A DNA stretch of 64,000 nucleotides. It comes from Dysidea avara. Taxonomy: Eukaryota > Porifera > Demospongiae > Dictyoceratida > Dysideidae. The notes under the pieces are model-generated. The model had not been told where the DNA came from, ran no database searches, and saw nothing but the letters and a program-made list of their open reading frames with translations. This document shows, in pieces, positions 22,035 through 53,515 of this stretch. Numbering within the stretch: position 1 is the stretch's first letter; every line of letters begins with the position of its first letter. Location of the stretch: NCBI RefSeq assembly GCF_963678975.1, contig NC_089276.1, positions 30,868,472 through 30,932,471 of the forward strand, written 5' to 3'. A program made the position numbers and the translations under genes.

Positions 22035-22117
22035 GGGTGGGGTCCGAGCGTACATGTCGTTGTCCGAGCATCGACGTTTTTGGACAGTGGATTTCCGAGG
22101 TCACTGCAGCCACACAA

Positions 22118-30939: not shown

Positions 30940-31674
30940 TTACAGGTTTTTGCAATTGAATTCGGCGACTTTGCAATTGAATTCGTCCCGTTTGCAATTG
31001 AGTTCATCGCTGTTACAATTGAATTCGTCCCGTTTGCAATTGAATTCGTCGGTTTGCAATTGAATTCGTCCCGTTTGCAATTGAATTCATCGCTTTTGCA
31101 ATTGAATTCGTCGCTTTTGCAGTTAAATTCGTCCGTAACAAGAATGGCAGCTGGAGCAAACACGAAAACATGATGTAGCAGCTGCTACAAGAACTTGTTC
31201 AAGTACAACAGTAGTAAACAACTCTTTATAAGGCAATAATTCTTCCTCTACAGCCTATCCAGCAACATTCCAAACTCTACTACGCCATTCGCGATAGGTG
31301 TGGTCACTCGCGAGCAAGTTAATTAACTTGTCAGACAGCTATCAACTTCGCGTACTACCAGCTTCAATTACCTTCTAGTGTCTCAAGTGTAACTCTCCAA
31401 GGCATAAATAGTTCATCTCTTAATGAACGGGTTGGTTTCTTGAAGCCGTTTTGTTTATGACGAATTGTAATGCAAACGCGACGAATTCTATTGCAAAACC
31501 GACTAATTCAACTGCAAAACCGACGAATTCAATTGCAAAACCGACGAATTCAATTGCAAACGGGACGAATTCAATTGCAATACCGACGAATTCAATTGCA
31601 AACGGGACGAATTCAATTGCAAACGGGACGAATTCAATCGCAAAGGCGACGAATTCAATTGCAAAAACCTGTAA
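30940..31674. mobile_element. Fold-back element with 21-bp tandem-repeat arms
   Basis: The outer ends TTACAGGTTTTTGCAATTG and CAATTGCAAAAACCTGTAA are exact inverted copies. Each arm consists of about nine tandem units of ~21 bp with the core GCAATTGAATTCGTC (left, 30955-31135) or GACGAATTCAATTGC (right, 31480-31670). The loop (31140-31460) has no clear ORF. The stop-free Asn-Ser-Ile-Ala peptide frames are by-products of the 21-bp period. Confidence 0.75.
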
Positions 31675-31679
31675 CTGCT

Positions 31680-32550
31680 TTTTACTGTAGTTCATCTATT
31701 ATGTTAATTAATATTTGTTTAAGCACTACTATTATGTGCTAGAACACAGAGATATAATGATGACATGTTCTAAGGACAGGATACACATGAAACCACCCAG
31801 ATTTACGATGCGGTAAAAATAAAGTTTATCATCATCTTTTCTTAACCTCCATCTTCATGTATACAAAGGCACTGATGAACCTTAAATTACACAATCGAAC
31901 ATGGTAGCCAAGTACATTCTGAAAGTGCTAGCTCAATTACATTGTACAAGACATTTTGTAAGTTTGTAAAAGGAATTATGACAGACATGAAACCTAAATA
32001 TCCAAGCTTAGATATGATGGATAATATTACTCAAGCATGTGCCAAGGGCAAAGTAAACAAGTAAGAATTTTTTAATGGGCAAAGGATAATGAATGCTCTT
32101 CTACTTTGGCAAGTGTACTGTATTCTCCATGCAGTACTGTATCTGCCTCATACAGAACACTTTGGCAAATACAGTACAGTCATACAGAACAGTTATGTAA
32201 GGAATGTTACAAAACCAACCCCAGTTGAACCAGCATGATTGATCACGTACACGACATTTTAAATCACTAAAACTAGCTAAGTCAATCCTACCAGTTTGTT
32301 CTATAACCAAAAACACATTATACAAGCACTACTGATGTTATGATATCCGAAAATTGAAGTGATCTGGATACTCAAGATGAGTGCTCTTTTGAGGAAAACA
32401 ATAAGGCAGACCAAGAAGTACAATATGACACCATTAGCACCACCTGCTTGTGTGTACAAAAATACAGCACTTGGGGAGTGTCTCAAGACTAATGCAGTAC
32501 TTGGCTTTGCCTCATGCTGTATTAGTCTCTCAACATGTCCCCTCGTGTTC
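31680..32550. other. Non-coding, nothing recognised
   Basis: I find no exon, RNA gene or matched repeat here. A near-repeat, CAGTACTGTATCTGCCTCATA (32132) against GCAGTACTTGGCTTTGCCTC (32494), is too short to interpret. Confidence 0.35.
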
Positions 32551-32699: not shown

Positions 32700-33799
32700 C
32701 AGTGCTTTAACTATAACACACGTAGTAATATGAATACCTACGTTTATGTGTTGTCATAGCATTTTCAAAATGAAATGTACACAGTACAAATACCTGTAAC
32801 TTTATCTTGGAACAAGGGTGCTGGTGGAACCAGTATACTTGGATATGGATATTATATATCACTGTCACTACTTGCAATTGAGAGATTTTCAAACACTTAA
32901 AAAAACTTTATTGAGAATTTAGACTATGAGGGATTTCGCACAAGAGGACTAGCTACTGGATCAAGACACACGGTAGTGTGTCGTGCGGCCCAAGAAGCCG
33001 GCGCGTAACACCCGTGAGTATATTGACAGGAAGAAAGAAAACGCAATTTTCGCACCTCCGTAGCTCTGTGCTTCCTTGCTGAAACAAGACGATTTTTGCT
33101 GTGGACATGCCCCCCAACTGCAGCACTCTACATTCCAAATTTGAGCGAAATCGCTTCGCGCGTTCCCGAGATATGCGACTTCAAAAATTGGCTGAGTTTC
33201 TTCGTTTTTTTTTTCTTCTTCTTCTTCTTCTTATTTTTCTTTTTCTTGTCGCACACTTACAAAAACTGCTATAAAACTCGAACGCGTTATCCGATTGCCT
33301 TGAAATTTGGCACACAGAAGGGGGGTATAAAGGCGCATCTCGGTACCAACTTTGGCTGGAATACCATAAACAGACAAAGAGTTATGAGCGATTATGCACG
33401 AAAAATAACACCAATATGTTGTCACGCCTACAGGGTAAACCGCGTATGGGAAGAAGCTGAAAATCGGTGGGTGAATAGGTTAACTATTGAACCTCAAACC
33501 TTTTGTGGTTTGAAAGAAATCGAGCTAAAAACCAGGAAGATACAGCGAAAAAATCAACAGTGTGTAACAATTACGCAATCGAGATTAGCTAATTTTTAAT
33601 ATTTTTATTTTATTATTATTATTATTATTATGCTTGCCACGCCTACCAGGTAAACCGCTTGGGGTAATGCTTTCAAAATCGCTGTACAGATGGAGTTATC
33701 ATCTTAGAAAGGCTCTTCAATGGTGTAGAAGAATCAGACTTAAATCCACGGAGTTATAACACGAAATCCAACTTGGTGTAGCAAGTGCGAGATCGAGAT

Positions 33800-36700
33800 A
33801 CTCTAATAGAGCAGTCATCCTAATAGAGCAGTCACCCTGAACAGAATTAAAGAGATCAGTTAGAAATAAGTAACCTGTATAGAGATCAGCTACAAACAAA
33901 TCACCCTGTAGAGAGTTCAGCTACAAACAATTCACCCTGTTAAAACATCAGTTAGAAGAAGATTTCTTGTAGAGAGTTCAGATACAAACAAATCACCCTG
34001 TTGAAAGATCAGCTAGAAGATGTCACCTTGTAGATAGTTCAGTTACAAAGAAACCACCATGTAGAGAATTCAGCTACAAACTAGTGACCCTGTAGATACA
34101 TCAGCTAGAAGAAGTTACCTTGTAGAGAGTTCAGCTACAAAGAAACCATTCTGTAAAGAGCTCAGCTGCAAACAAATCACCTATACAAAATTCAGCTACA
34201 AACAAATCACCCTGTAGAGAGATCAGCTAGAAGAAGTTACCTTGTAGATAGTTCAGCTACAAACAAATCATCCTGTAGAGAGATCAGCTAGAAGAAGTTA
34301 CCTTGTAGATAGTTCAGCTACAAACAATTCACCCTGTACAGAGCTCAGTTAAAAGAGGTTTCCTTGTAAAAAGTTCAGCTACAAACAAATCACCCTGTAG
34401 AGAGATAAGTAAGAAGAAGTTACCTTGTAGATCGTTCTGCTACAAACAATTCACCCTGTAAAGAGATCAGCTAGAAGAAGTTACCTTGTAGAGAGTTCAG
34501 CTACAAAGAAACCATCATGTAGAGAATTCAGCCGCAAACAAATCATGTATAGAGAGTTCAGCTACAAACAAATCTCCCTGTAGAGAGATCAGCTAGAAGA
34601 AGTTTCCTTGTAGAGAGTTCTGCTACAAACAAATCACCCTGTAGAAAGATCAGCTAGAAGAAATCACCTCGTAGAGAGTTCAGCTTCAAAGAAACAATCA
34701 TGTGAGAGTTCAGGTACAAACAAATTGTCCTGTAGAGAGATCAGCTAGAAGAAGTTACCTTGTAGAGAGTTCAGCTACAAAGAAACCATCATGTAGATAG
34801 TTCAGGTACAAACAAATCACCCTGTAGAAAGATCAGCTATAGAAGAAATCACCTTGTAGAGAGTTCAGCTACAAAGAATCTATCGTGTAGAGAGTTTAAC
34901 TACAAACAAATCACCCTGTAGAAAGATCAGCTATAGAAGAAATCACCTTGAAGAGAGTTCAGCTACAAAGAAACCATCATGTAGAGAGTTCAGCTACAAA
35001 CAAATCGGCCTGTAGAGAGATCAGCTAGAAGAAATTACCTTGTAGAGAGTTCAGCTACAAAGAAACAATCATGTAGAGAGTTCAGCTGCAAACAAATCAC
35101 CTGTAGAGAGTTCAGCTAGAAACAAGTCACCCTGTAGAGAGATCAGCTAGAAACAAGTCACCTTGTAGAGAGTTCAGCTAGAAGAAGTAACATTGTAGAG
35201 CTACAAAGAAGCTACCATGTAGAGTTCAGCTGCAAACAAATCACCCTGTAGAGAACTCAGCTACAAACAAATCGCCCTGTAGAAAGATTAGCTAGAAGAA
35301 GTTACTTTATAGGGAGTTCAGCTATGAACAGATCACCCTGTAGAGAGTTCAGCTACAAACAAATCACCCTGTAGAGAGTTAAGTTACAAAGAAACCACCA
35401 TGTAGAGAGTTCAGCTGCAAAAAAAATCAATCACTCTGTAGAGAGTTCAGCTAGAAGAAGTCACCTTGTAGAGAGTTAAGCTGCAAATAAATCACCCTGT
35501 AGAGAATTCAGCTACAAACAAATCACCCTGTAGAAAGATCAGCTAGAAGAAGTTACCTTGTAGAGAGTTCAGCTACAAAGAAACCACCATGTAGAGAGTT
35601 CAGCTGCAAACAAATCACCTGTAGAGAATTCAGCTAGAAACAAGTCACCCTGTAGAGAGATCAGCTAGAAACAAGTCACCCTGTAGAGAGTTCAGCTAGA
35701 AGAAGTCACATTGTAGAGAGTTCAGCTACAAAGAAACTACCACGTAGAAAATCCAGCTGCAAACAAATCATCCTGTAGAGAGTTCAGCTAGAAGAAGTCA
35801 CCTTTTAGAGAGTTCAGCTACAAAGCAACCACCATGTAAAGAGTTCAGCTGCAAAAAACTCAATCACCTTGTAGAAAGATCGGCTAGAAGAAGTTACCTT
35901 GTAGAGAGTTCAGCTACAAAGAAACCACCATGTAGAGAGTTCAGCTGCAAACAAATCACCTGTAGAGAGTTCAGCTAGAAACAAGTCACCCTGTAGAGAG
36001 TTCAGCTAGAAGAAGTCACATTGTAGAGAGTTCAGCTACAATGAAACTCCCATGTAGAGAGTTCAGCTGCAAACAAATCACCCTGTAGAGAACTCAGCTA
36101 CAAACAAATATGCAGTGAAAAAGATCAGCTAGAAGAAGTTACCTTGTAGAGAGTTCAGCTACAACGAAACCACCATGTAGAGAGTTCAGCTACAAACAAA
36201 TCACCTGTAGAGAGTTCAGCTAGAAACAAGTCACCCTGTAGAGAGATCAGCTAGAAACAAGTCACCTTGTAGAGAGTTCAGCTAGAAGAAGTCACATTGT
36301 AGAGAGTTCAGCTACAAAGAAACCACCATTTAGAGAGTTCAGCTGCAAACAAATCACCCAGTAGAAAGTTCAGCTATGAACAGATCACCCTGTTGAGAGT
36401 TCAGTTAGAAACAAGGAATCCTGTAGAGAAATCACCTAGAAGTATCGCCTTGTAGAGTTCAGCTACAAACAAATCACCTGTAGAGAGTTCAGCTACAAAC
36501 AATGTAGAGAGATCAGCTAGAAGAAGTTACCTTGTAGGGATTTCAGCTACAAACAAATCACCCTGTAGAGAGTTCAGCTACAAAGAAACTATTCTGTAAA
36601 GAACTCAGCTGCAAACAAATCACTTGTACAGAATTCAGCTACAAACAAATCGCCCTGTAGAGAGATCAGCTAGAAGAAATTACCTTGTAGATAGTTCAGC

Positions 36701-37245
36701 TACAAACAAATCACCCTGTAGAAAGATCAGTTAGAAGAAGTTACCTTGGAGAAAGTTCAGCTACAAAGAAACCATTTTGTAAAGAGCTCAGCTGCAAACA
36801 AATCACCTGTACAGAATTCAACTACGAACAAATCACCCTGTAGAGATCAGCTATAAGAAGTTACCTTGTAGATAGTTCAGCTACAAACAAATCTCCCTGT
36901 AGAGAGATCAGCTAGAAGAAATTACCATGTAGAGAGTTCAGCTGCAAAGAAATCACCCTGTAGAAAATTCTGCCAGAAACAAATTGCCCTGTAGAAAGAT
37001 CAGTTAGAAGAAGTTACCTTTTAGAGAGTTCAGCTACAAAGAAACCATTCTGTAAAGAGCTCAGCTGCAAACAAATCACCTATACAAAATTCAGCTACAA
37101 ACACATCACCTGTAGAGAGATCAGCTAGAAGAAGTTACCTTGTAGATCATTCAGCTACAAACAATTCACCCTGTAGAGAGAGCAATTAGAAGAAGTCACC
37201 TTGTAGAGTGTTCAGTTACAAAGAAACCACCATGGAGATTTCTGT
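33800..37245 (+). repeat. ~31-bp satellite array, block 1
   Basis: The monomer is AGTTCAGCTACAAACAAATC plus ACCCTGTAGAG, ~31 bp. It alternates with the variants AGATCAGCTAGAAGAAGTTA and CAAAGAAACCACCATGTAGAG. About 110 units run head to tail with higher-order alternation. The array starts right after ACTCTAATAGAGCAGTCA. Confidence 0.9.
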
Positions 37246-37255
37246 AATCAATATA

Positions 37256-37485
37256 TGTGACCGGATTTGCGAAAAGGGGTCTTCCACACACATTCAATTC
37301 CGTAAATGTTGGAGACCATAACTCAGTGTTCAAGTAACATAATTATTAACCTGAACATTTCACCATGTATTCAGCTATAGTGGTGCTCACCACTGCCCAA
37401 ATATCAAGGCAATAGCTCTTTCCAATCTGAAGTTATCAATTGTCAAAGTTGGCAAATTGGACCCCTTTTCGCAAATCCGGTCACA
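37256..37485. mobile_element. MITE with TGTGACCGGATTTGC ends, copy 2
   Basis: The left end TGTGACCGGATTTGCGAAAA pairs with the right end TTTTCGCAAATCCGGTCACA. It is 230 bp, related to 11318-11567, and sits between the array and the tail of the satellite-bearing element. Confidence 0.7.
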
Positions 37486-37653
37486 TATGTATTATACAGT
37501 ATATATAATTTGTACATTTACTGATAAAATATTTAAAGTACATCTACTTCATCTTTTCTTCTTCCTGTAGTAAAGAAAAAAACATAGGTTAAAAAAGTCC
37601 CAAAGCTGGCCATAGGCCGGCTTTGGGGTATACAAATACAAAAAGAAATGAAA

Positions 37654-37973
37654 TCTAATCCAAAACAGCCAAGCTGTAAAAAAAGTGTGCGGCCCTCAGA
37701 AAGGCTATGGTGAAAAAAGATGTGAAATCCAAGGTGGCGGCCAAGAAATGGCTGTGATGGTAGGTTAGTGGTAAAAATTTTAATAACGACAATTCAGGTG
37801 AATTTTTGTGAAGCGGCACAAAAATTCACCTGAATTGTCATTATTAAAATTTTTACCACTAACCTACCATCACAGCCATTTCTTGGCCGCCACCTTGGAT
37901 TTCACATCTTTTTTCACCATAGCCTTTCTGAGGGCCGCACACTTTTTTTACAGCTTGGCTGTTTTGGATTAGA
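37654..37973. repeat. 320-bp hairpin (element centre), copy 1
   Basis: TCTAATCCAAAACAGCCAAG pairs with CTTGGCTGTTTTGGATTAGA, and the arms match for ~155 bp (for example AAGGTGGCGGCCAAGAAATG with CATTTCTTGGCCGCCACCTT). Copies lie at 45838-46163, 50585-50906 and, decayed, at 62850-63105. Confidence 0.85.
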
Positions 37974-38252
37974 TAGATTTTACTTTAAGAAACTTCTTTT
38001 TAAAAAAATCAATTTGTGTGATCTCTGCCAAGTAAATGTTTACAGTAAGAGGCAACTACCCTAAGGTTGCAACCAATTGCAATGGCTAAAAGTGTGGTAC
38101 AATTTAGTGTGAATGGATTCATCAGAGAACTGATAACTACTAAGAGCAGAGCAAGGAAAGAGAATGTCTTAGCCATCTATACCTTTAGTGGATGAAGTTG
38201 TATTAGCAAGTAAGAGCTAGTAGTATCAGCAAGAACTCTAGTAATAGCTATA

Positions 38253-38333
38253 ATGGCAGCAAGTAGTGATTATAGTAGTGGCAGCAGGTATAATGACTGT
38301 GACACCGACAGTGGAGTGGTAAACTTTGGTACG
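38253..38333 (+). CDS. First exon candidate of CXXC gene
   Basis: ATG to ACG, 27 codons, Ser/Asp/Gly-rich (SSDYSSGSRYNDCDTDSG), followed by the consensus donor GTGAGT, phase 0. The frame is also open upstream to 38214, so it might instead be an internal exon. There is no signal peptide. Confidence 0.45.
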
Positions 38334-41300
38334 GTGAGTATGTGCATTTATGCTTTATGCTTCAGGTATACCTAGCTGTATCAGTAATCACGCCAGCATG
38401 TTTGGCGGGTGCATATATAGAGGAGGGTGGTATTGTGGTGGACTGGAAGCGGACCATTATGCTTCACCTGGACCTTGTATGTTCGGACCATTTGTGCATT
38501 GGCAGTACAGCTATTTCACAATAATGCTAGATACATATAGTATCTGACCCTCTCATTAGATTCTGTATTTCTGTTTTCAATGCATACATCCAATTTTATA
38601 ATGCAGCAAATGCCTATTTCATCATTTTCATTTACCTCCTAATCACAAATAAGTCATGGATGGGATAGGACTATACAGTGGAACCAGTCTTAGCGGCCAC
38701 CTGTATAAATATACCACCTCTCTATAAAGGCCACTCTTGAATATCAGTACTGAGACATTTATACATTAATTAATCCAACTGTATAAGCAACCACTTGCTT
38801 ATTAATTATATAAGGCCACGAAATTTTGGCCCAAAGATAACCATCATAAATAGGTTCCACTGTTCCTCTCTAAATAGTGAGTAGTTGATTTGTAGATTAA
38901 ACATGAATGATTGGATACAGATGTATTGCATGTGGACAAGGTGGTAGTGTGCTGTCAAGTGTTTACAAACAAAGTAACTGTATGTTATATGTAGGTCACA
39001 AAGAGTGTTAAATGTATGGTTTGATATGTATTTTTACTGTGTGTGCTTGTCTTTCAGGCCAACCAGCTCAATAAGCTGGGATATGATATCTTTATCCTCG
39101 GGCACAAAAGAAATGCTGTCAACCCATCTCATATTAATTTTACGACACCTGGTATAGCTAAAGAATTTGTTAAAGATTACCCTAAACTTTTTGAGGGGTG
39201 GAAACATATTGCTCATCAAAATCACGAGGTGTGAGTTGTTATTGTGTATTGACTACTTATCATACAACTAATTTATATAAGGACACATTGCATTTTTGTA
39301 TTTGCAATTTAGCACTGTATATTCCATACCTATTGGCAAGCCAAGGCACGTACCATATGCATATTCACTTGATCAAAAACCACTAGCTTAGAATCAAAAC
39401 TTGATTAGGCTACCATTTGGGGGTGGCAACTATTTGGGGACAATATTTATACCATAAGTAGCTCTTAGGTGTGTCAACCATTAAAAAATAAAGACTTTTG
39501 TTGTAAAAAACAATTTTAAAAAACTAGCTTGCTGCAATGTGTGCTTAAAGGAATGGCTGATAAAAGTATGATTGAAGTATAGCATACGTACTATATGTAC
39601 ATGTCGTACCTCCTCTGTCTAATAATACTGCAATGTTGCATTCAATTAGACCACATTGCAGATGTGGTTTATTATATGAATACAAAACAACAGTTCTTTT
39701 CAACATGTGCATAAACAGTATACTTTCATATGTACCGCTCACATTTTATTTCCCTTAGGACAAAACAGTAATCATCAAGGTATGTATATCTGTAGTAGTG
39801 TTAAAAAACATTTCAAGGTTAGTGATCGTAAAATATTACGTAAAATAAGCCATGGTCATTGATTGGCTATGCACAATATTTACATCGTTACAGTAGGATT
39901 GTCAACGGCAGGAGAGAATGAAAGTATGATGTTACCATTAGCGACGTGTGTTATTTAATAATTCATTCAGTAGGGTTGACACAAACAGCTATACAGGGTC
40001 AAGGTAAGATGTTACCATTAGCAATGTGTGTTATTTAATGATTCATTCAGCAGGGTTGACACAAACAGCTACACAGGGTCAAGGTAAGATGTTACCATTA
40101 GCGATGTGTGTTATTTAATAATTCATTCAGTAGGGTTGACACAGACAGCTACACAGAGTCAAGGTAAGATGTTACCATCAGCAACGTGTGTTATTTAATA
40201 ATTCATTCAGTAGGGTTGACACAGACAACACAGAGTCAAGGTAAGATGTTACCATCAGCAACGTATGTTATTTAATAATTCATTCAGTAGGGTTGACACA
40301 GACAGCTACACAGAGTCAAGGTAAGATGTTACCATCAGCAACGTGTGTTATTTAATAATTCATTCAGTAGGGTTGACACAGACAACTACAGAGGGTCAAA
40401 GTAAGATGTTACCATCAGCAACGTATGTTATTTAATAATTCATTCAGTAGGGTTGACACAGACAGCTACACAGAGTCAAGGTAAGATGTTACCATTAGCA
40501 ACATGTGTTATTTAATAATTCATTCAGTAGGGTTGACACAGACAGCTACACAGAGTCAAGGTAAGATGTTACCATTAGCAACATGTGTTATTTAATAATT
40601 CATTCAGTAGGGTTGACACAGACAACTACAGAGGGTCAAGGTAAGATGTTACCATCAGCAACGTGTGTTATTTAATAATTCATTCAGTAGGGTTGACACA
40701 GACAGCTACACAGAGTCAAGGTAAGATGTTACCATTAGCAACATGTGTTATTTAATAATTCATTCAGTAGGGTTGACACAGACAACTACAGAGGGTCAAG
40801 GTAAGATGTTACCATCAGCAACGTGTGTTATTTAATAATTCATTCAGTAGGGTTGACACAGACAGCTACACAGAGTCAAGGTAAGATGTTACCATTAGCA
40901 ACATGTGTTATTTAATAATTCATTCAGTAGGGTTGACACAGACAGCTACACAGAGTCAAGGTAAGATGTTACCATTAGCAACATGTGTTATTTAATAATT
41001 CATTCAGTAGGGTTGACACAGACAACTACAGAGGGTCAAGGTAAGATGTTACCATCAGCAACGTGTGTTATTTAATAATTCATTCAGTAGGGTTGACACA
41101 GACAGCTACACAGAGTCAAGGTAAGATGTTACCATTAGCAACGTGTGTTATTTAATAATTCATTCAGTAGGGTTGACACAGACAGCTACACAGAGTCAAG
41201 GTAAGATGTTACTATTGGCAGCGTGTGTTATTTAATAATTCATTCAGTATGGTTGACACAGACAGCTACAGAGGGTCAAGGTAAGATGTTACCATCAGCA

Positions 41301-42330
41301 ACGTGTGTTATTTAATAATTCGTTCAGTAGGGTTGACACAGACAACTACAGAGGGTCAACGTAAGATGTTACCATCAGCAACGTGTGTTATTTAATAATT
41401 CATTCAGTAGGGTTGACACAGACAGCTACACAGAGTCAAGGTAAGATGTTACCATTAGCAACGTGTGTTATTTAATAATTCATTCAGTAGGGTTGACACA
41501 GACAGCTACACAGAGTCAAGGTAAGATGTTACTATTGGCAGCGTGTGTTATTTAATAATTCATTCAGTATGGTTGACACAGACAGCTACAGAGGGTCAAG
41601 GTAAGATGTTACCATCAGCAACGTGTGTTATTTAATAATTCGTTCAGTAGGGTTGACACAGACAACTACAGAGGGTCAAGGTAAGATGTTACCATCAGCA
41701 ACGTGTGTTATTTAATAATTCGTTCAGTAGGGTTGACACAGACAGCTAGACAGAGTCAAGGTAAGATGTTACCATCAGCAACGTATGTTATTTAATAATT
41801 CATTCAGTAGGGTTGACACAGACAGCTACACAGGGTCAAGGTAAGATGTTACCATCAGCAACGTGTGTTATTTAATAATTCGTTCAGTAGGGTTGACACA
41901 ACAGCTACACAGAGTCAAGGTAAGATGTTACCATTAGCAACATGTGTTATTTAATAATTCATTCAGTAGGGTTGACACAGACAGCTACACAGAGTCAAGG
42001 TAAGATGTTACCATCAGCAACGTGTGTTATTTAATAATTCATTCAGTAGGGTTGACACAGACAGCTACACAGAGTCAAGGTAAGATGTTACTATTGGCAG
42101 CGTGTGTTATTTAATAGTTCATTCAGTATGGTTGACACAGACACAGAATCAAGGTAAGATGTATTTGATATTCATTGAATTATTGTAATCAATCATATTA
42201 TGTAGCAAGAAGAAAACGCTGCAGGGAGTGTGATGGCTGCAGGGCCACAAAATGTGGTAACTGCAAATACTGTTTGCACCCTTCATTGAAAAGGGCTTGT
42301 ATGATGAGGAAATGTATAAATTTGAACTAG
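38253..42330 (+). CDS. CXXC zinc-finger protein gene with internal microexon-like array
   Basis: Exons seen are 38253-38333 (MAASSDYSSGSRYNDCDT..., donor GTGAGT, phase 0), 39058-39228 (ANQLNKLGYDIFILGHKRN..., donor GTGTGA, phase 0), 39759-39779 (DKTVIIK, donor GTATGT) and 42206-42330 (CXXC finger and stop). Between the last two lies an 80-bp tandem array in which every unit has splice-like borders. The CXXC exon must be entered in phase 1, or in phase 2 from an inner acceptor; a phase-0 entry gives a different peptide. So at least one array unit, or the alternative donor GTGAGT at 39231, is needed to set the frame. CXXC fingers bind unmethylated CpG DNA in the nucleus (KDM2, CFP1, TET and MLL families). 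The 38253 exon may be an alternative start, with 24003-27987 providing another N-terminus. Confidence 0.6.
38676..38862. mobile_element. pogo/Tigger-like MITE in intron
   Basis: CAGTGGAACCAGTCTTAGCG at the left and ATAGGTTCCACTG at the right, with TA on the left side (38674-38675) and TT on the right. The interior has CGGCCACCT / AAGGCCACT units. It is 187 bp, a relative of 2145-2312. Confidence 0.65.
39058..39228 (+). CDS. Conserved-looking exon of CXXC gene
   Basis: The exon is 171 nt after the acceptor TGTCTTTCAG. It encodes ANQLNKLGYDIFILGHKRNA, VNPSHINFTTPGIAKEFV and KDYPKLFEGWKHIAHQNHE, a compact alpha/beta-like segment with aromatic residues that reads as real protein. It leaves in phase 0 by GTGTGA, or in phase 2 by the stronger GTGAGT two bases later. 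I do not recognise the domain. Confidence 0.65.
39759..39779 (+). CDS. 21-nt microexon candidate
   Basis: GACAAAACAGTAATCATCAAG lies between the acceptor TTTCCCTTAG and the donor GTATGT. In phase 0 it reads DKTVIIK. Its end (CAAG before GT) resembles the unit segment of the nearby 80-bp array, so it may be its ancestor. Confidence 0.45.
39892..42154 (+). repeat. 80-bp tandem array; each unit carries a microexon-like segment
   Basis: Twenty-eight units have GTAAGATG donors at 40004, 40084, 40164, 40241, 40321 and then every 80 bp to 41841, 41920, 42000, 42080 and 42154; a diverged first unit has a GTATGATG donor at 39922. Each unit is a 47-nt intron-like part (GTAAGATGTTACC...AATTCATTCAG) plus a 33-nt segment starting TAGGGTTGACACAGAC and ending GTCAAG. 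Segment lengths are 33, 30 or 27 nt in all but one unit (32 nt). In phase 1 each reads GLTQTATQSQ or a close variant, with no stops; phase 2 is also open; phase 0 starts with TAG. Confidence 0.9.
42206..42330 (+). CDS. CXXC zinc-finger last exon
   Basis: After the acceptor ATTATGTAG, the frame entered in phase 1 reads RRKRCRECDGCRATKCGNCK and YCLHPSLKRACMMRKCINLN, then TAG. The eight cysteines follow C-x2-C-x2-C-x4-C-x2-C-x2-C...C-x4-C, the CXXC finger that coordinates two zinc ions; a basic RRKR precedes it. The usual Asp before the second CG is Lys here, and the linker before the last two Cys is short. The finger stands at the extreme C-terminus. A phase-0 reading is also open (QEENAAGSVMAAG) but ends at a TGA and has no domain. 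Confidence 0.75.
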
Positions 42331-42390
42331 TGTACCTGTACATGTAATAATCACTGTTTTAGTTAAGATTGGTTTCCTTTTTTTTACTTT

Positions 42391-42396
42391 AATAAA
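42391..42396 (+). terminator. Polyadenylation signal AATAAA
   Basis: AATAAA lies 61 bp after the stop of the CXXC exon, which supports that exon as the end of the transcript. Confidence 0.6.
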
Positions 42397-42724
42397 ATAT
42401 CCATACTGTACATGTGATGGTTATGTGACAAAATGGTCTATTATTATATAACTCTTCCCCTATTATATATATTATATATAAAAGACAGTTCCATTGTTCC
42501 TTAATGAACTGTGGCACTGGCTGGTACATATACTACAAACAGAATACAGGTATTGTACGTAGGTCAGAGAATGTTACTATAGTTGGGATCCTGAGCTGCT
42601 GACCTCTTAACTCTTAAGCACATCAAAAAATGGATAGTGTCAGTGTTGGATCACATCCATGGAGATGCCAGGTTGTTGTACAACATACCACCCATGCCTA
42701 CAATTAGCTAGATGCATTATAATA

Positions 42725-43260
42725 TTCATTTGGATTATAGGTAGAATAAAACCTCATTTACATATTGATAACACCATGCACGCATACTCCATTATAGTGA
42801 CAATGTCGAGTAGGTCCCAAACAGCCCTAGTTCATGACCTCATTAATAAGACCACCTCATTATAGTAACCATGTTGAGCAGGTCCGGATCCCATACACAG
42901 CTAAAGTGTATTTCATGACCTCATTATAGTGACCATATCCAGTAGGTCTCATACACAGCTAAGGTGTACTTCTCAACCTAAAAAATAAGACCACCTCATT
43001 ATAGCGACCATGTCAAGTAGGTCCCAAACATAGCTAAGGTGTACTTCATTACCTCATTAATAAGACCACCTCATTATAGTGACCACATCCCATACACAGC
43101 TAAGGTGTACTTTATGACCTCATTACACTGACCATGTCAAGTAGGTCCCAAACAAGCTAAGGTGTACTTCATGGCCTCAATAATAAGACTACCTCATTGT
43201 AGTGACCATGTCAAGTAAGTAGGTCCCAAACGTAGCTAAGGTCTACTTTGTGGCTACACA
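42725..43260. repeat. Degenerate ~80-bp tandem repeats
   Basis: About six units share CCTCATTATAGTGACCATGT, AGTAGGTCCCAAAC, AGCTAAGGTGTACTTCATGA and CCTCATTAATAAGACCA. The CCTCATTA/GACCACCT blocks resemble the interior of the pogo-like elements, so this may be an amplified arm of one. Confidence 0.6.
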
Positions 43261-43969
43261 CTAGTCTCTGCTTAGTAACGTTACTAATTTTGAACAAGGG
43301 TGATGATAACTGTACATGTCCTATTCAATATTGTTCAGGGGCATGCATGAAGTTAATGTAGTAAACATGTCTTAAATAGAAGCAGAATTTATATAGGGAC
43401 ATGATTTACATACAGTAAACAAACCTTGGTCAGATACAAATGAGAAATTATTTATATTAGCACAAAGAAAACAATGAAGTTAATGGAAACCTTAACACTA
43501 CTGTTACACTACTGCTATCAAATAAACACAACAATGATGAATCGACTGTCAATAAATCAATTGCAGTTCAAATCAACACTATAAAATCAAAGCACTGTGT
43601 CAAAGTGTCTTCTATGACTCTATCTCTGTGGGTCTTTGGCTCACACAAGATGTATGTGGTAGAAACTATAACAGCAGTGGTTGTGGTTAAATAAACCCCA
43701 ATACTTACAGCTGCTGAACTGCAAGGATACAAGTCAAAGGCTTTTGAGTGAGACTCTACATTTGAAGTGAGTTCTTTGTTCCTAATGCACTTTAATTAAG
43801 GGGGTAGGCCGGCATAAAGAGACAAAAGCATTGGCAGAAGACTGTTGCACAGGTGGCAGTTCAGTGCTAATGTATTGATATATGGTGTAATTTTGGTGCG
43901 TCATGATTTGGTTTCGATTAATTTTTGTTTTACTTTGTAATTATTAATGACAATCACTGATCACTATTA
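43261..43969. other. Non-coding, nothing recognised
   Basis: This lies downstream (on the minus strand) of the acidic exon and may include its 3' UTR. No clear polyadenylation signal was found close to the stop on that strand. Confidence 0.35.
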
Positions 43970-44251
43970 CTAGCTGTCATCGCTTGCACTACTGTTGTAA
44001 GAGTCAATGTCCACTCCAAAAGTTCCTAAATCTTCGTCTTCGGAATACTCATCCTCTTCATTGTCACCATCATCATTGTCACCATCATCATTGTCACCAT
44101 CATCATTGTTATCATCAGCAGAATGTGTATCACTATTGAACACTTCTGTAGCTGAAGTTACATAATCTGTAGCCTGGGTCAAACTTTTAAATAGAAATGC
44201 TTTTTTTCCTTTTAAAAAGTCCAGGGCAACAGATTGGGATGAATACCACAT
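43970..44251 (-). CDS. Acidic C-terminal exon candidate
   Basis: The open frame starts directly after an AG (CATACATAG on the minus strand), so it may be a last exon entered at that acceptor; ATG is its first codon either way. It reads MWYSSQSVALDFLKGKKAF, SLTQATDYVTSATEVFNS, then three DDGDN repeats (a 15-bp tandem GATGATGGTGACAAT), EEDEYSEDEDLGTFG, and ends ASDDS. Asp/Glu-rich tails like this are common in nuclear proteins. I do not recognise the family, and upstream exons on the minus strand were not found. Confidence 0.4.
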   Translation of the reverse strand: MWYSSQSVALDFLKGKKAFLFKSLTQATDYVTSATEVFNSDTHSADDNNDDGDNDDGDNDDGDNEEDEYSEDEDLGTFGVDIDSYNSSASDDS

Positions 44252-44342
44252 CTATGTATGGCAAGGCCATAAAGAAATATATTATAATAGTATAATAGAA
44301 ATATATTATAATAGTAGAAATATATTATAATAGTATAGTATA

Positions 44343-44388
44343 AAGTAACTTGCATACTAATATATTATAATAGTATGCAAGTTACTTT
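44343..44388. repeat. Perfect AT-rich hairpin
   Basis: AAGTAACTTGCATACTA pairs with TAGTATGCAAGTTACTT around ATATATTATAA. It is preceded by tandem TATAATAGTATAATAGAAA units from ~44275. Confidence 0.7.
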
Positions 44389-44850
44389 TACAAAGTAACT
44401 TGCCCAACACTGACAATATGTGTGATGAAACATATCGATATATTGTGTATTGCAATATATTGCTGTGTTACAATATATTGTGTAATATTGCTGAGTTGTA
44501 ATGGGCTGTGGCCTTGTGGATAATTAGCCTATTCAGCTGCCACCCTCATGGGCATCAAAGCCACCAGAATATAATTGTTGATGTTTTAGAAGCCACATAT
44601 CCTTAAAAAACAGTACTGGTTGTAGTACTGTCTACTTAATTGTAACACCTATTTAATAACTGTTCGCCATTATAAGCAGCTTTTGACTGGTGGGTGTACA
44701 CCACATGACACTAATGCTATCTGCTGTACACAAGTATAGCACTTTAACATCACTAATCCAAGTATTGCAATACAGCAATATTATATAGCACTATTTTTTT
44801 AAGGCAATATGCAATATGGTATTTACCCATATTGTTGCATCCCTAGTACT

Positions 44851-45170
44851 CTGTAGAAAAACAATCCCTACATTACAAAAATGATTATTTAGTGATGCTT
44901 AGTAACTGAACTATGCATGCTGACTCACTCAATTCTTTTTGCTTCACAACAATGCCCCAAACTAAACCAACATATTTAACTCAAACCCACAAATCAATGC
45001 TCTGTAGCTGCCTCAGCATCAAAGGCAGTTGTGGTCAGGGCTATATCATGATATTGCCCTAACCATAGGGTGATATCTAGATATCGCCCTGTGGTCAGGG
45101 AAATATGTGATATATAACCCTGTGGTTTCCTTTGATCTGAGGTGTCAAAGTGGTATATCTGTCAATATAC
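44851..45170 (+). repeat. Interspersed repeat, copy B plus CCCTGACCACAGG palindrome
   Basis: 44851-44980 matches 12458-12594. 45035-45165 matches 13320-13440, including CCTTTGATCTGAGGTGTCAA. The two blocks lie in the same order at both loci, so they may be parts of one element. Confidence 0.6.
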
Positions 45171-45837
45171 CCTGTACAAGCACACTGTGTTAAGTTTCTC
45201 TTTGATTAAATCAATACCTGTACTGGTGATAGAGGACTGTTGATTAGCGTTAATTGGTGCTGATAAGGTCAAGTCTTTATTCTTTGAACAGAGTCAGGTG
45301 TAATTTAACACAGTGTGTTCCATGGAAGTATTTCAGTTAGATACTCTCCTCCACTACTACATATATTATGAACTCTTGCAGCAACTATATTGAAAATAAA
45401 CTACAGGTACTTACATTCACAGCCATAGCATCCGTTTGCATTAGTCTAATGTTGGAATTTGGCTTAAAATGTTCACCATGAATTAGCATACCAACCAAGG
45501 TATAGTTTTAAGCTCTATAGTCGCTTACGCATATGGATATGAAATTGAACAAATGACTTTATGTTTACCACATCTTAAACAACGCATGTGACACACATAC
45601 CATACGATTGGGGATACAGAAAAGAAACAAAGATTTTCTAAGCCTCCATAGGTAGGCAAATAAGATGGTGTATAGTTTTAATCAATTTGAATAATCTTTC
45701 TCTGAGTAATGGCTCAATAAACATTCGATGGGGTAGCATTCACAGAATAAAAACTTTCATATTATTTGTAGTATGCATAGTTTTACAATTTATTTCATTT
45801 ATCTCATAATGCATACTTGTGTGAACAAGTATATATA
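45171..45837. other. Non-coding, nothing recognised
   Basis: No persuasive exon or matched repeat is visible. Confidence 0.35.
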
Positions 45838-46315
45838 TCTAATCCAAAACAGCCAAGCTGTAAAAAAAGGGTGCGGCCCTCAAAAAGGCTATGGTGAAAA
45901 AAGATGTGAAATCCAAGGTGGCGGCCAAGAAATGGCTGTGATGGTAGGTTAATGGTAAAAATTTTAATAACGACAATTCAGGTGAATTTTGTGCCGCTTG
46001 GTCTTGGCAAAAAATTCACCTAAATTGCCGTTATTAAAATTTTTACCATTAACCTACCATCACAGCCATTTCTTGGCCGCCACCTTGGATTTCACATCTA
46101 TTTTCACCATAGCCTTTTAGAGGGCCGCACCCTTTTTTTACAGCTTGGCTGTTTTGGATTAGATTTCACTTCTTTTTGTATTTGTATACCCCAAAGCCGG
46201 CGATAGGCCGGCTTTGGGACTTTTTTAACCTGTCTTTTTTTCTTTACTACAGGAAGAAGAAAAGATGAAGCAGATGTACTTTAAATATTTATCAGTAAAT
46301 GTACAAATAATACAT
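45838..46315 (-). mobile_element. Hairpin plus tail of satellite-bearing element, inverted remnant
   Basis: The hairpin (45838-46163) has TCTAATCC/GGATTAGA ends as at 37654. It is followed by the reverse complement of the tail at 37490-37653, including CCAAAGCCGG, TAGGCCGGCTTTGG and CTACAGGAAGAAGAAAAGAT. Head and array are missing. Confidence 0.75.
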
Positions 46316-46569
46316 TATGTGAGTGGTTCAAGTAAAATCAAAGAATTATTGCCGTATTTTAAAACTTATTTTTTAAAATACAATTATATAATTTAGTCCG
46401 TGAGGAATGTCGTATCAACATAATAACTAATTTTGATAAATCTTGTGCATGGTGAAGTCATAATGATGATGTCATATTGATGACATCATAATGCTATATT
46501 TTAATCTGCATTTTTTTCAGATTTGTTCAAAAGAAATAAAATTTGGATTTTACTTGAACCTCTCACATA

Positions 46570-47365
46570 TCAAGACACACGGTAGTGTGTCGTGTGGCCC
46601 AAGAAGCCGGCGCACCACACCGTGAGTATATTGACAGGAAGAACGAAAACGTCATTTTCACACCTTTGTATCTCGGTGATCACTTATCTGATTGGAACCA
46701 AATTTGCTACACAGCTGCCCGCCAGCCAAGGGAGTCTACATTCCAAATTTGAAGGAAATCGCTCCAGCCATTTCCGAGATACGAGCTGCCAAAGTTTCGT
46801 TTTTTTTTTCTTCGTTTTTTTTTCTTCTTCGTCTTTTCGCACACTTGCAAAAATTGCTATAACAAGCAAACGCGTACTCCGAACGCCTTGAAATTTGGCA
46901 CACAGAAAGGGAGTCCAAAGGCGAATCCTAGCATCAAATTTAGTACAAATCCGATGAATGGTTCAGGAGTTATTACCGATTATTCGCGTAAAACAAGATC
47001 GATTTGTTGTCACGCCTACAGGGTAAACAACTTCATGGAATGAGTTGAAAATTGCTATGTAGATGGAGTAACCATCGTAGGAGTGCCTTTTGGTGGTTTG
47101 AAAGGAATCGAGATAAAGACCACGGAGATATGACACAAAACCCAACCTGTGTCACAATTACGCGATCGATTTTTATGAATAAAAAAGTATTAGTTTTCAC
47201 GCCTACTAGGCAAACCGCTTAGAGCAATGAGCTGAAAATCGGTGTATAGCTGGAATAATCTTCATAGAAAGTCCTTGCAGTAGTACAGAAGAATCGGATT
47301 ACAAACCACTGAGTTATGATTCGAAAGCCAACTCCGTGTAGCAAATGCGAGATCGAGATACTCTA
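46570..47365 (+). repeat. Element head, copy 2
   Basis: It shares with 32961-33800 the blocks GTGGCCCAAGAAGCCGGCGC, GTGAGTATATTGACAGGAAG, TTGAAATTTGGCACACAGAA, GTCACGCCTACAGGGTAAAC and GAGATCGAGATACTCTAATA. A CTT-rich tract lies at 46800-46835. Inverted copy at 53515-54337; decayed copies at 61170-61640 and 61895-62760. Confidence 0.8.
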
Positions 47366-50300
47366 ATAGAACAGTCACCCTAATAGAGCATTCGGCTAAT
47401 TTATTTACTCCATTATAGAATTCTATTGCATCACAAGTTATTCTGTAGGGAGTTCAGCTGCAAACAGTTAATCTTATAGACAGTTCAGCAAGAAGACAGT
47501 CACCATGTGGAGAGTTAAGCAAATATACCACTATAGAGATTCAGAACATTACAAGTCACACTGAAGAAAGTTCAGCTATAAACAAGTCATGCACTGTGTA
47601 GAGAATTCAGCTACAATTAAGTCACTCTCTAGAGAATTCAGTTACACAGAATTCAGCTACACACAAGTCACTGTGGAGAGAGTTCAGCTACAAACAAATT
47701 ACCCTTTAGAGTGATCAGCTACAAACAAAACACTTTGCAGGGTGTTCAACCACAACAAATCAATTACCTTTAGTGCGATCAGCAATGAACAAATCAACAC
47801 AAATCTACCTGTAGAGAGATCAGCTAGAAACAAATCACCCTGAAGAGAGTTCAGCTACAAAAAATCACCCTGTAGAGACATCAGCTAGAAACTAGACACA
47901 ATGTAAGGAGTTCAGCTACAAGCAATCACCCTGTAGAGAGTTCAGCTAAAACAAATCAACCTGCAGAGAGATCAGCTACAAACAAATCACCTTATAGAGA
48001 GTTCAGCTACAAACAGATTACCTGTAGAGATATCGGCTACAAACAAATCAACCTGCAGAGAGATCAGCTATATACACACAAATCAACTTGTAGAGAGATC
48101 AGCTACAAACAAATCACCCTGTAGAGAGATCAGCTACAAACTAGACACAAAGTAAGGAGTTCAGCTACAAGCAAATTACCCTGTAGAGAGTTCATCTACA
48201 AACAAATCAACCTGTAGAGCAATCAGCTAGAAACAAATCACCCTGAAGAGAGGTCAGCTACAAAAAATCACCCTGTAGAGAGATCAGCTAGAAACAAATC
48301 ACCCAGAAGAGAGGTCAGCTACAAAAAAATCACCCAGTAGAGAGATCAGCTACAAACAAATTGCCCTGTAGAGAGATCGGCTACAAACAAATCAGCCTGT
48401 AGAGAGTTCAGCTAAAACAAATCAACCTGCAGAGAGATCAGCTACAAACAAATTACCCTGTAGAGAGATCGGCTACAAACAAATCAGCCTGTAGAGAGTT
48501 CAGCTAAAACAAATCAACCTGCAGAGAGATCAATTACAAACAAATCACCTTATAGAGAGTTCAGCTACAAACAAATTACCCTATAGAGAGATCGGCTACA
48601 AACAAATCAACCTGCAGAGAGATCAGCTACACACAAATCAACTTGTAGAGAGATCAATTACAAACAAATCACCCTGTAGAGAGATCAGCTAGAAACTACA
48701 CACAATGTAAGGAGTTCAGCTACAAATAAATCACCTTATAGAGAGTTCAGCTACAAACAAATCACTCTGTAGAGAGATCAGCTAGAAACTGGACACAATG
48801 TAAGGAGTTCAGTAACAAGCAAATCACCCTTTAGTGAGTTCAGCTACAAACAAATCAACCTGCAGTGAGATCACCTACAAAAAAGCACCTTGTACAGAGT
48901 TCAGCTACAAACAAATTACCCTATAGAGAGATCGGCTACAAACAAATCAACCTGTAGAAAGATCAGCTACACACAAATCAACTTGTAGAGAGATCAGCTA
49001 CAAACAAATCACCCTGTAGAGAGATCAGCTAGAAACTAGACACAATGCAAGGAGTTCAGCTACAAGCAAATCACCCTTTAGTGAGTTCAGCTACAAACAG
49101 ATCAACCTGCAGTAAGATCACCTACAAAAGAGCACCTTGTACAGAGTTCAGCTACAAACAAATTACCCTGTATAGAGATCGGCTACAAACAAATCAACCA
49201 GTAGAAAGATCAGCTACACACAAATCAACTTGTAGAGAGATCAGCTACAAACAAATCACCCTGTAGAGAGATCAGCTAGAAACTAGTCACAATGTAAGGA
49301 GTTCAGCTACAAGTAAATCAACCTGCAGAGAGATCAGCTACAAATAAATCACTTTATAGACAGTTCAGCTACAAACAAATTACCTTGTAGAGAGATCGGC
49401 TGCAAATTAATCAACCTGCAGAGAGATCAGCTACACACAAATCAACTTGTAGAGAGATCAGCTACAAACAAATCACCCTGTAGAGAGATCAGCTAGAAAC
49501 TAGATACAATGCAAGGAGTTCAGCTACAAGCAAAATCACCCTTTAGTGAGTTCAGCTACAAACAAATCAACCTGCAGTGAGATCACCCACAAAAACGCAC
49601 TTGTACAGAGTTCAGTTACAAACAAATCACCCTGTAGAGAGATCAGGTAGAAGAATTCACCTTGTAGAGAGTTCATTTACAAAGAAACCATCATATAGAG
49701 AGTTCAGCTACAAAGAAATTACCCCGTAGAGAGTTCAGCTAGAAGAAGTCACCTTGTAAAGAGTTTAGCTACAAAGAAACCATCATGTACAGAGTTCAGC
49801 TACAAAGAAACCACCTGTACAGAATTCAACTACAAACAAATCACCCTGTATAGAGATCAGCTAGAAGAAGTTACCTTGTAGATAGTTCAGCTACAACAAT
49901 TCACCCTGTAGAAAGATCATGCTAGAAGAAGTCACCTTGTAGAGTGTTCAGTTACAAAGAAACCATCATGTAGAGAGTTCAGCTGCAAACAAATCACTCT
50001 GTAGAGAGTTCAGCTACTAAGAAACCGCCATGTAGAGAGTTCAGCCTCATACAAACACCTAGTAGAGAATTCAACTACAACAAATCACCCTGTAGAGAAG
50101 AAGTTACCTTGTAGAGAGTTCAGCTACAAAGAAACCACCATGTAGAGAGTTTAGCTGCAAACAATTCACCTGTAGAGAGTTCAGCTAGAAACAACACCCC
50201 GTAGAGAGATCAACTGGACGAAGTCACCTTGTAGAGAGTTCAGCTACAAAGAAACCATCATGTAGAGAATTCAGCTGCAAACGAATCACCCTGCAGAGAG

Positions 50301-50395
50301 TTCAGCTACAAAGAAACCATCCTGTATATAGTTCAGCTACATTTCAAGTCACCCAGTAGAGAGATCAGCTGCAAAAAAAATCCTGTGGGGAATAA
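47365..50395 (+). repeat. ~31-bp satellite array, block 2
   Basis: About 95 monomers of the AGATCAGCTACAAACAAATC type. A longer higher-order unit with AAACTAGACACAATG(T/C)AAGGAG recurs roughly every 290-310 bp between 47880 and 49510. Confidence 0.9.
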
Positions 50396-50584
50396 TGAGC
50401 ATGTAATAAATATATGTATATAATTTGTATAATTACTAATAAAATCAAAAATAATTGAAGTACTAAAATTCTTCTTTAAGTTCTTTTCTTCTTCCTGTGG
50501 TAAAGAAAAAACACATGGGTTTAAAAAGCCCCAAAGCCAGCCATAGGCCGGCTTTGCAGTATACAAATACAAAAAGAAGTGATA

Positions 50585-50906
50585 TCTAATCAAAAACAGC
50601 CAATCTGTAAAAAAAGGTGCGGCCCCCATAAAGGCCATGGTGAAAAAAGATGTGAAATCCAAGGTGGCGGCCAAGAAATGGCTGTGATGGTAGGTTAATG
50701 GTTACATTTTAATAACGACAATTCAGGTGAATTTTGTGCCGCTTGGTCTTGGCACCAAATTCACCTGAATTGTTGTTATTAAAATGTAACCATTAACCTA
50801 CCATCACAGCCATTTCTTGGCCGCCACCTTGGATTTCACATCTTTTTTCACCATGGCCTTTATGGGGGCCGCACCTTTTTTTACAGCTTGGCTGTTTTTG
50901 ATTAGA
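50585..50906. repeat. Hairpin at the centre of the giant palindrome
   Basis: TCTAATCAAAAACAGCC and GGCTGTTTTTGATTAGA bound ~155-bp matching arms around a loop with GTGCCGCTTGGTCTTGGCA. Confidence 0.85.
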
Positions 50907-50929
50907 TATTTATTACAGAACTCTTCATG

Positions 50930-53515
50930 GTGGTTTCTTTGTAACTGAACACTCTACAAAGTGACTTCTTCTTGCTGCTCTCTCTACAGGGTGAATTGTT
51001 TGTAGCTGAACAATCTACAAGGTAACTTCTTCTAGCTGATCTCTCTACAGGGTGATTTGTTTGTAGCTGAACAATCTACAAGGTAACTTCTTCTAGCTGA
51101 TCTCTCTACAGGGTGATTTGTTTGTAGCTGAATTCTGTGCAGGTGATTTGTTTGCAGCTGAGCTCTTTACAGAATGGTTTCTTTGTAGCTGAACTCTCTA
51201 CAGGTAACTTCTTCTAACTGATCTTTCTACAGGGCAATTTGTTTGTGGCTGAATTTTCTACAGGGTAATTTCTTTGCAGCTGAACTCTCTACATGATGGT
51301 TTCTTTGTAACTGAACTCTCTGCAAGGTAATTTCTTCTAGCTGATCTCTCTACAGGGAGATTTGTTTGTAGCTGAACTCTCTACAGGTGATTTGTTTGCA
51401 GTTGAACTCTCTACATGATGGTTTCTTTGTAGCTGAACTCTCCACAAGGTAACTTCTTCTAGCTGATCTTTCTACAGGGTGATTTGTTTGTAGCTGAATT
51501 CTCTACAAGGAAACTTTTTCTAGCTGATTTCTCTACAGGGAGATTTGTTTGTAGCTGAACTCTATACAGGTGATTTGTTTACAGCTGAACTCTCTACATG
51601 ATGGTTCTTTGTAGCTGAACTATCTACAAGGTGACTTCTTCTAGCTGACCTTTCTACAGGGAGATTTGTTTGTAGCTGCACTCTCTACAGGTGATTTGTT
51701 TGCAGCTGAACTCTCTACATGATGGTTTCTTTATAGCTGAACTCTCTACAAGGTGACTTCTTCTAGCTGATCTCTCTACAGTGAGATTTGTTTGTAGCTG
51801 AACTCTCTACAGGTGATTTGTTTGCAGCTGAACTCTCTACATGATGGTTTCTTTTGTAGCTGAACTCTCTACAAGGTAACTTCTTCTAGCTGATCTCTCT
51901 ACAGGGAGATTTGTTTGTAGCTGACCTCTCTACAGGGTGATTTTTTTTTTGTAGCTGAACTTTCTACATACAAAGTGACTTGTTCTAGCTGGTCTCTCTA
52001 AAGGATGACTTGTTTCTAGCTGATCTCTCTGCAGGGTGACTTGTTTCTAGCTGAACTCTACTGGGTGATCTGTTCATAGCTGAACTCTCTACAGGATGAT
52101 TTGTTTACAGCTGAACTATCTACATGGTGGTTTCTTTGCAGCTGAATTCTCTACATGGTGACTTCTTTTAGCTGAACTCTCTGCAGGGTGATTCGTTTGC
52201 AGCTGAACTTTTTACATGATGATTTGTTCATAGCTGAACACTCTACAAGGTAACCTCTTTTAGCTGATCTCTTTACAGGATAATTTGTTTCTAGCTGAAC
52301 TCTCTACAGGGTGATTTGTTGGTAGCTAAACTCTCTACAATTCGATTTGTTTGCAGCTGAACTCTCTACATGGTGGTTTCTTTGTAGCTGAACTCTCTAC
52401 AAGGTAGCTTCTTCTAGCTGATCTCTCTACAGGATGACTTGTTTCTAGCTGAACTCTCTACAGGGTGATCCTTTCATAGCTGAACTCACTACAGGGTGAT
52501 TTATTTGCAGCTGAACTCTCTAAATGATGGTTTGTTTGTAGCTGAACTCTCTACAAGGTAACTTCTTCTAGTTGATTTCTCTACAGGGTGACTTGTTTCT
52601 AGCTGATCTCTCTACAGGGTGATTTGTTTGTAGCTGAACTCTGTACAGTATGATTTGTTTGCAGCTGAACTTTCTACATGGTTGTTTCTTTGTAGCTGAA
52701 CTCTCTACAAAGTAACTTCTTCTAGTTGATCTCCCTACAGGATGACTTGTTTCTAGCTGAACTCTCGACAGGATGATCTGTTTATAGCTGAATTCTCTAC
52801 ATGGTAGTTTCTTTGTAGCTAAACTCTTTACAAGGTGACTTCTTCTAGCTGATCTCTCTACAGGGTGATTTGTTTGTAGCTGAACTTTCTGCAGGGTGAT
52901 TTGAACTCTCTACAAGGTGATGTTTTCTAGTTGATCTCTCTACTCAGTCAGGATGACTTGTTTTTAGCTGAACTCTCTACAGTGTGATCTGTTAAGTTTC
53001 TACCTGATCTCTCTATAGAGTTATATCTTGTTTGTATAGCTGAACTCTTTTACATGGTGGTTTTTTGATTGGTTGCTGAACTCTCTCTCCACGGTAACTT
53101 GTTTGTACTACAGAGTGACTTGTTTGTAGCTGAACTCTCTACAGAGTGACTTACTTGTTGCTGAACATTGCATAAAGTAACTTGTTTGTAGCTGATCTAG
53201 ATGAACTCTCTACTAGGTAGCTTTTTTGTAGCTGAACCCTTTATGCAGTGACTTGTTTGTAGCTGACTTCTCTACAGAGTGACTTGTTGTCTCTACAAGG
53301 TGACTTGTTTATAGCTGAATTCTCTTCAGTGTGACTTATAATGTTCTGAATCTCTACAGCAACATATTTGTAGCTGAACTCTCTACAGGATGACTTGCTT
53401 GTAGCTGAATTGTCTATAAGATTAACTGTTTGTAGCTGAACTCCCTACAGAATAACTTGCAATTCCATATAATTCTATAATGGAGTAAGTTATAAATGTA
53501 GCTGAATGCTTTATT
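50930..53515 (-). repeat. ~31-bp satellite array, block 3 (inverted)
   Basis: The monomers read CTCTACAGGGTGATTTGTTT GTAGCTGAA, the reverse complement of blocks 1 and 2; about 83 units. Together with block 2 this makes a multi-kilobase inverted repeat. Confidence 0.9.

Follow-up and report, generated by a model that had tools for sequence, protein, structure and literature searches.

A tandem array of putative coding micro-exons upstream of a CXXC zinc-finger exon in the sponge Dysidea avara

The array and its flanking exons

A 64,000-bp stretch of the Dysidea avara genome (RefSeq assembly GCF_963678975.1, contig NC_089276.1, positions 30,868,472 to 30,932,471; the whole stretch is called the window) carries a tandem array of 80-bp units between an exon for an uncharacterised domain and a terminal exon predicted to encode a CXXC zinc finger (Table 1). 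The genome searched comprised 550.8 Mb in 108 contigs, and the window lies in contig C5 (contigs are numbered with C and the sequence pieces examined with L). Tandem Repeats Finder (TRF) detected 27.8 copies of the 80-bp repeat with 94% matches (39924–42143). Unit-by-unit parsing gave 28 exon-like segments (25 of 33 nt, unit 4 of 30 nt, unit 25 of 32 nt and unit 28 of 27 nt) and 27 intervening intron-like parts, each of 47 nt and running from GT to AG. An alignment-based parse, which included a diverged edge exon, gave 29 exons and 28 introns (GT 28/28, AG 28/28), and by both parses the phase-1 frame contained no in-phase stop. The segments were delimited by an acceptor TTC[A/G]TTCAG and a donor GTA[A/T]GATG.

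A first-pass annotation of the same sequence had described 28 units, each a cassette bearing its own splice sites, with segment lengths that were multiples of three in all but one unit and a phase-1 frame that was open in every unit and fitted the CXXC exon at 42206. These claims were confirmed, the first by TRF together with the unit-by-unit parsing, and the exceptional unit was identified as unit 25. The overall description of the array also held; the acceptors, however, did not always read TTCATTCAG, and the piece at the start of the array proved to be a diverged edge unit with a donor of its own.

Table 1. Features of the array locus in the window
Feature	Position	Strand	Remarks
Upstream exon, uncharacterised domain of ~55 aa (ANQLNKLGYDIFILGHKRN...)	39058..39228	+	Comparison with C2 and C13
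Candidate 21-nt exon, uncertain; QNSNHQ if phase 1 to phase 1	39759..39779	+	Identical in C2 and C14
Diverged first exon at array edge, 30 nt, GLSTAGENE, donor GTATGATG	39894..39923	+	Same in C2 and C13
Array, 28 exon+intron units of 80 bp	39924..42153	+	Exon V-GLTQTATQSQ, entered and left in phase 1; 47-nt introns
First to last array exon	39971-40003 to 42127-42153	+	Parsing
Unit 25, sole window unit with an exon not a multiple of three (32 nt)	41888..41919	+	Parsing
Terminal exon, predicted CXXC zinc finger, A-RRKRCRECDGCRATKCGNCKYCLHPSLKRACMMRKCINLN-stop, phase 1 on entry	42206..42330	+	Pfam zf-CXXC

The terminal exon matched Pfam zf-CXXC (PF02008) with a score of 24.2 bits (E 3.4e-5), just below the curated cut-off of 26.5. 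The best-scoring solved structures were the fingers of TET3, KDM2B and TET1, with weak E-values (0.003–0.02). Short CXXC fingers of the TET/CXXC4-5-like type are defined by their cysteine pattern and by a short loop without KFGG. In an alignment to TET3 (5exh_C) the window exon had its cysteines in the same pattern and a short loop ahead of the final pair, and as far as sequence goes it conformed to this type. The exon plausibly encodes a DNA-binding finger.

Related loci in the genome

The window locus had copies on contigs C2, C13 and C14, so that this type of locus (the A copies) was found on four contigs; the C2 copy lies at 43825389–43828648. Not counting the diverged first exon, there were 28 units in the window, 28 in C2 and 15 in C13, in agreement with the earlier suggestion that array length may change without breaking the frame. 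Introns were invariant in length across the A copies of C5, C2 and C13. C14 gave no match to the domain-exon region, and its CXXC exon stopped short after a few codons; 3 of its 11 full units (a count that omits a last partial unit of 17 nt) were not a multiple of three, whereas the remaining A copies had one such unit in 74 (p 0.006). From these sequences C14 clearly appears to be a dead copy. At window position 38765, upstream of the domain exon, C2 and C13 had an insertion of ~390 bp, related in inverted orientation to window 12935–13328, and window 32961–37972 and 30951–31688 had no counterpart at the matching place in these two copies.

At least 29 matches to the CXXC exon were found in the genome, and ~3.1-kb pieces around the 29 listed were surveyed with the repeat finder. 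An exon+intron tandem array lay within 1.5 kb upstream of the CXXC exon in 20 of the 29, and no array was found within that distance in eight (L046, L049, L063, L064, L067, L068, L069 and L070). The fixed cysteine pattern was present in 26 of the matches listed (not in L048, L051 and L052), and a phase-1 acceptor was available in all 26. Six of the array-free loci (L046, L049, L063, L064, L067 and L069) were CXXC exons clustered at C12:6.5–8.1 Mb, possibly an array-free form of the family.

The arrays were sorted into eight unit families, A to H, with introns of 46–57 nt and whole units of 76–132 bp in the consensus. Among the encoded repeats were V-GLTQTATQSQ (A), V-VNGSQQGT (B), A-ATLTSANSS (C), V-GQNIAGQDAMATT (D), T-TSVNGLATGG (F) and A-SDGVANSNTTVPVMPPHVS (G). 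Family C had a related, diverged form, Cp, and the nine consensus exons (33, 27, 30, 30, 42, 75, 33, 60 and 30 nt) were all open in phase 1. Among the other 35 pairs of units, six beat shuffled sequences at p 0.01 or less, which was above chance (A–D, A–H, C–D and C–H over the whole unit; A–E and B–Cp over the exon). Thus shared ancestry or composition is possible, and an independent origin of the families is not proved. The B copy on C3 lies at 32605827–32610113; each of the 23 full units of its array had an exon of 27 or 30 nt and was open, with full introns of 51–55 nt.

The family member in L047 (997–1620; C9:36219498–36220118) contained a 27-bp repeat without introns, coding for Thr and Ser, and its phase-1 acceptor sat inside this repeat. 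There were no introns between the domain, the repeats and the CXXC part, and apparent frame switches were seen. The repeat was found at nine places, all at that locus, in a genome search allowing up to 3 mismatches. A retrocopy was considered for L047 and left open, because the upstream acceptor looked retained and the repeat was restricted to the locus.

The domain exon was searched for with the B version as query (relaxed search, E up to 10), and 26 matches were obtained genome-wide. Fifteen of them lay 0.5–11.2 kb 5′ of a listed CXXC exon on the same strand, against a chance expectation of ~0.0003 per match; six of these 15 were weak on their own (E 0.04–0.19). Wherever it was read by eye (B, F, H, and C2 and C13 of A) the domain exon exited in phase 1, and in D the phase-1 exit could be followed up to the edge of the piece. 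Pfam gave nothing useful for this exon (one weak HTH_34 match, E 0.097), and its alignment gave just two weak MarR matches against the PDB (E 0.17 and 0.18).

Constraint on the units and competing explanations

Constraint was examined in the pooled units of 20 arrays, with C14 excluded; an identity threshold of 70% removed 10 of 288 exons and 12 of 278 introns. Exon length was a multiple of three in 276 of 278 units, and four units contained a stop. Introns started with GT in 262 of 266 cases and ended with AG in 257. Distinct indels were multiples of three in 5 of 7 cases in exons versus 3 of 37 in introns (p 0.00095); the A introns did not vary in length, so this contrast comes from the remaining groups. 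Among distinct substitutions, the non-synonymous to synonymous ratio was 0.67 of the expected value, with an excess of synonymous changes (p 0.016). Splice sites and a frame-neutral length per unit, the marks of tandem exon duplication, were thus found with boundaries that had been placed by hand.

The array is very probably a set of micro-exons that code for protein and were duplicated in tandem, within one member of a family of CXXC genes dispersed in the genome. Its units are most likely coding exons, and the linker that they specify, variable in length, would precede a TET-like CXXC finger. From the domain exon onwards, the plan of such a gene would be a conserved domain exon ending in phase 1, then n small exons entered and left in phase 1, each followed by a short intron, and a terminal CXXC exon entered in phase 1. 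Once transcribed and spliced, it would give a protein with n copies of a 9–25-residue repeat, in many cases with a high content of Thr, Ser, Gln, Asn or Gly, which would tie the upstream domain to the terminal finger. Unequal exchange would alter n. Because nearly all units are frame-neutral, gain, loss or skipping of units would alter the length of the linker and keep the frame. An 80-bp unit, itself not a multiple of three, would be tolerated in any number under this plan; exon indels would be expected to respect the frame mostly and intron indels not, and splice-site sequences would mostly be kept.

Chance splice-like motifs in an intronic minisatellite, with every unit removed inside one large intron, would be a very improbable explanation of these data. 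Minisatellites are common in the window, as its 31-bp arrays show, and frame-neutral splice pairs were easily found in such units: 39 of 82 loosely possible acceptor–donor pairs in the nine consensus units were multiples of three, 33 of them also open in phase 1, and under a strict donor definition, by which group G is missed, the numbers were 15 of 25 and 15. Since frame-neutral pairs arise so easily, exon length and phase are supportive and not decisive, and the indel contrast is the stronger test. Indels kept the frame where they fell in the exon-like segments and did not in the intron-like parts, which argues against such a minisatellite, as do the exon+intron arrays preceding 20 of the CXXC exons and the frame-breaking units of C14, the copy without the domain and CXXC exons.

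Further points weigh against the units being coding exons. The splice sites were set by eye and not blind to frame, most of the chosen exons were open in a second phase as well, and 18 of the 26 CXXC exons with the fixed cysteine pattern offered an acceptor in another phase besides phase 1. Without filtering, the indel contrast was weaker (exons 12/25, introns 10/59, p 0.006), and stop-creating substitutions were not significantly depleted among the filtered units (4 versus 5.8 expected, p 0.31). Joined A units and joined B units, searched in the whole genome with up to 3 mismatches, gave no match, so that no spliced retrocopy is known; likewise no junctions of A–D and F–H units were found in the loci examined. 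C2 had five units that had lost the acceptor AG, and C13 had two. In the A group, the donor GAG/GTGTGA needed for exit in phase 1 overlaps a better-looking GTGAGT two bases on, which would give phase 0 and a stop, and use of the former donor is inferred from sequence.

The frame of the window copy is a separate matter. Its domain exon had a run of three A where C2 and C13 (L037 and L039) had four; with the extra A the domain exons of C2 and C13 can exit in phase 1, and that of the window cannot. Being one A short, the window exon would run in phase 0 into the 21-nt exon or the array and end at a stop, and the frame would therefore be broken before the array unless the assembly had lost an A. 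The 21-nt exon is itself doubtful as a fixed exon because the C13 version had lost a base, which would break the frame if it were used; the array frame works equally well with this exon skipped. An additional candidate first exon near 38250–38335 (MAASSDYSSGS...) was dropped, as the frames of C2 and C13 differ from that of the window there.

These observations make it somewhat probable that the units are exons but belong, in the window and perhaps at several other loci, to pseudogenes, so that the array here would be a relic. The missing A and the 32-nt unit 25 point to a pseudogene in the window, and elsewhere the shortened 21-nt exon of C13 with a stop in one of its units, the dead copy C14 and an internal TGA in the CXXC exon of L051 point the same way. 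On the other side, every GT and AG was intact in the window units, no in-phase stop was seen, and the missing base falls in a run of A residues that may have been misassembled, as the alternative to a frameshift. With its upstream exon one base short and one unit of 32 nt, the window copy is probably a decaying or degenerate member of the family. This pseudogene reading is compatible with tandemly duplicated micro-exons as the best explanation, since it concerns single copies. The first-pass interpretation was upheld in part: frame-neutral cassettes feeding the CXXC exon are well supported by comparison with the 19 other arrays, transcripts may include variable numbers of units, and the window copy appears to be frameshifted upstream.

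Dispersal of the loci was considered in the same way. In the whole genome at least 150 zf-CXXC matches were obtained (150 of 193 candidates scored), many of them equal-scoring and at dispersed places, and zf-CXXC is a large expansion in this genome. Six CXXC exons of the B type lay on six contigs; compared with L053, four B copies were 97–99% identical over ~1,670 bases and L056 was 99% identical over 681. Together with the spread of the A copies over four contigs, this would fit a gene belonging to a mobile element, with the CXXC protein as an accessory DNA-binding protein encoded by a transposon, along with which the arrays would spread. Such an origin seems less likely than not. No transposase domain was found in the frames scanned, a scan that omitted 33643–37959 in all frames, the minus strand of 37960–42169 and one minus frame of 42170–54000. 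The apparent right end at 44293 was rejected as a transposon boundary, because C2, C13 and C14 share sequence beyond it.

For the micro-exon family itself, we tentatively suggest, with somewhat less than even confidence, that one intron position repeatedly spawns new micro-exon minisatellites and that paralogues amplified their own, different phase 1–1 units; the linker would then be fast-evolving and switchable in length, and splicing could sample array length within one cell. If this is true, exon arrays would be a general, frame-safe route to the evolution of protein length. The repeat unit is seemingly a whole exon plus its intron, and a change of copy number would thereby be safe for the frame. 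Eight unit families at one gene position, along with decayed copies, would provide a natural test of array birth, homogenisation and loss, as well as of the way in which the splicing machinery copes with dozens of near-identical exons in a row.

Other features were seen in the window and at related loci. The 31-bp arrays lie in both orientations at window 33851–37238, 47602–50379 and 50921–53459. Open frames at 16364–20138 and 21969–23201 are presumably those of long interspersed nuclear element (LINE)-like sequences, the second a partial copy of the 3′ part. Pfam matches to BrxL, HNF-1A, FYRN and Extensin on read-through frames were rejected, since no single passing stretch lay behind any of them, and matches to DUF7121, YadA_head and HC2 were weak, far below the cut-offs. 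At L040 (4854–6229) a CXXC open frame was followed by a frame with the motif DGNCLFRALS, which we take to resemble OTU proteases, and another CXXC-like frame was found on the minus strand of L041 (8298–8579). Upstream of the domain exon of a B gene, L078 281–1375 had inverted ends (32 bp at 91%) like those of a small DNA transposon.

Comparison with known systems

Tandemly repeated exons with 81-base repeats were reported in Schistosoma mansoni (Davis et al. 1988, cited in PMC10526429, PMC3723592 and PMC4015677); to judge from the title of that report, tandem exons encode a repeat there, as they would here. The present case differs in that one site in a single gene family, ahead of the CXXC finger, is occupied by eight unit families. 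In the micro-exon genes (MEGs) of schistosomes, as summarised in PMC4015677 and PMC10526429, a large share of the coding sequence is divided among many tiny exons, and exon skipping yields variants. MEG products are described there as secreted, and introns reach 5 kb, whereas the exon+intron units here are of 76–132 bp and the predicted product has a zinc finger at its end. In Macrobrachium, the Rlec lectins have coding repeats of 33 and 30 bp that vary in number across the gene family (PMC7536079). According to that account, the Rlec repeats all lie within the second exon, whereas every unit here has its own intron; L047, in which no introns separate the 27-bp repeats, comes closer to the Rlec form.

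The CXXC domains of TET3 (5exh) and TET1 (6asd) have the same cysteine pattern and short loop before the last two cysteines as the finger described here. The match is weak (E 0.003 to TET3), and, in contrast to TET, the finger is C-terminal and no dioxygenase domain was found in the stretches scanned. A literature search by title found no description of such arrays beside CXXC exons, nor of different arrays recurring at one position of one family or of so compact an exon+intron unit. Tandemly repeated exons are thus already known, and what appears to be new here is their recurrence, the compactness of the unit and the association with a CXXC exon.

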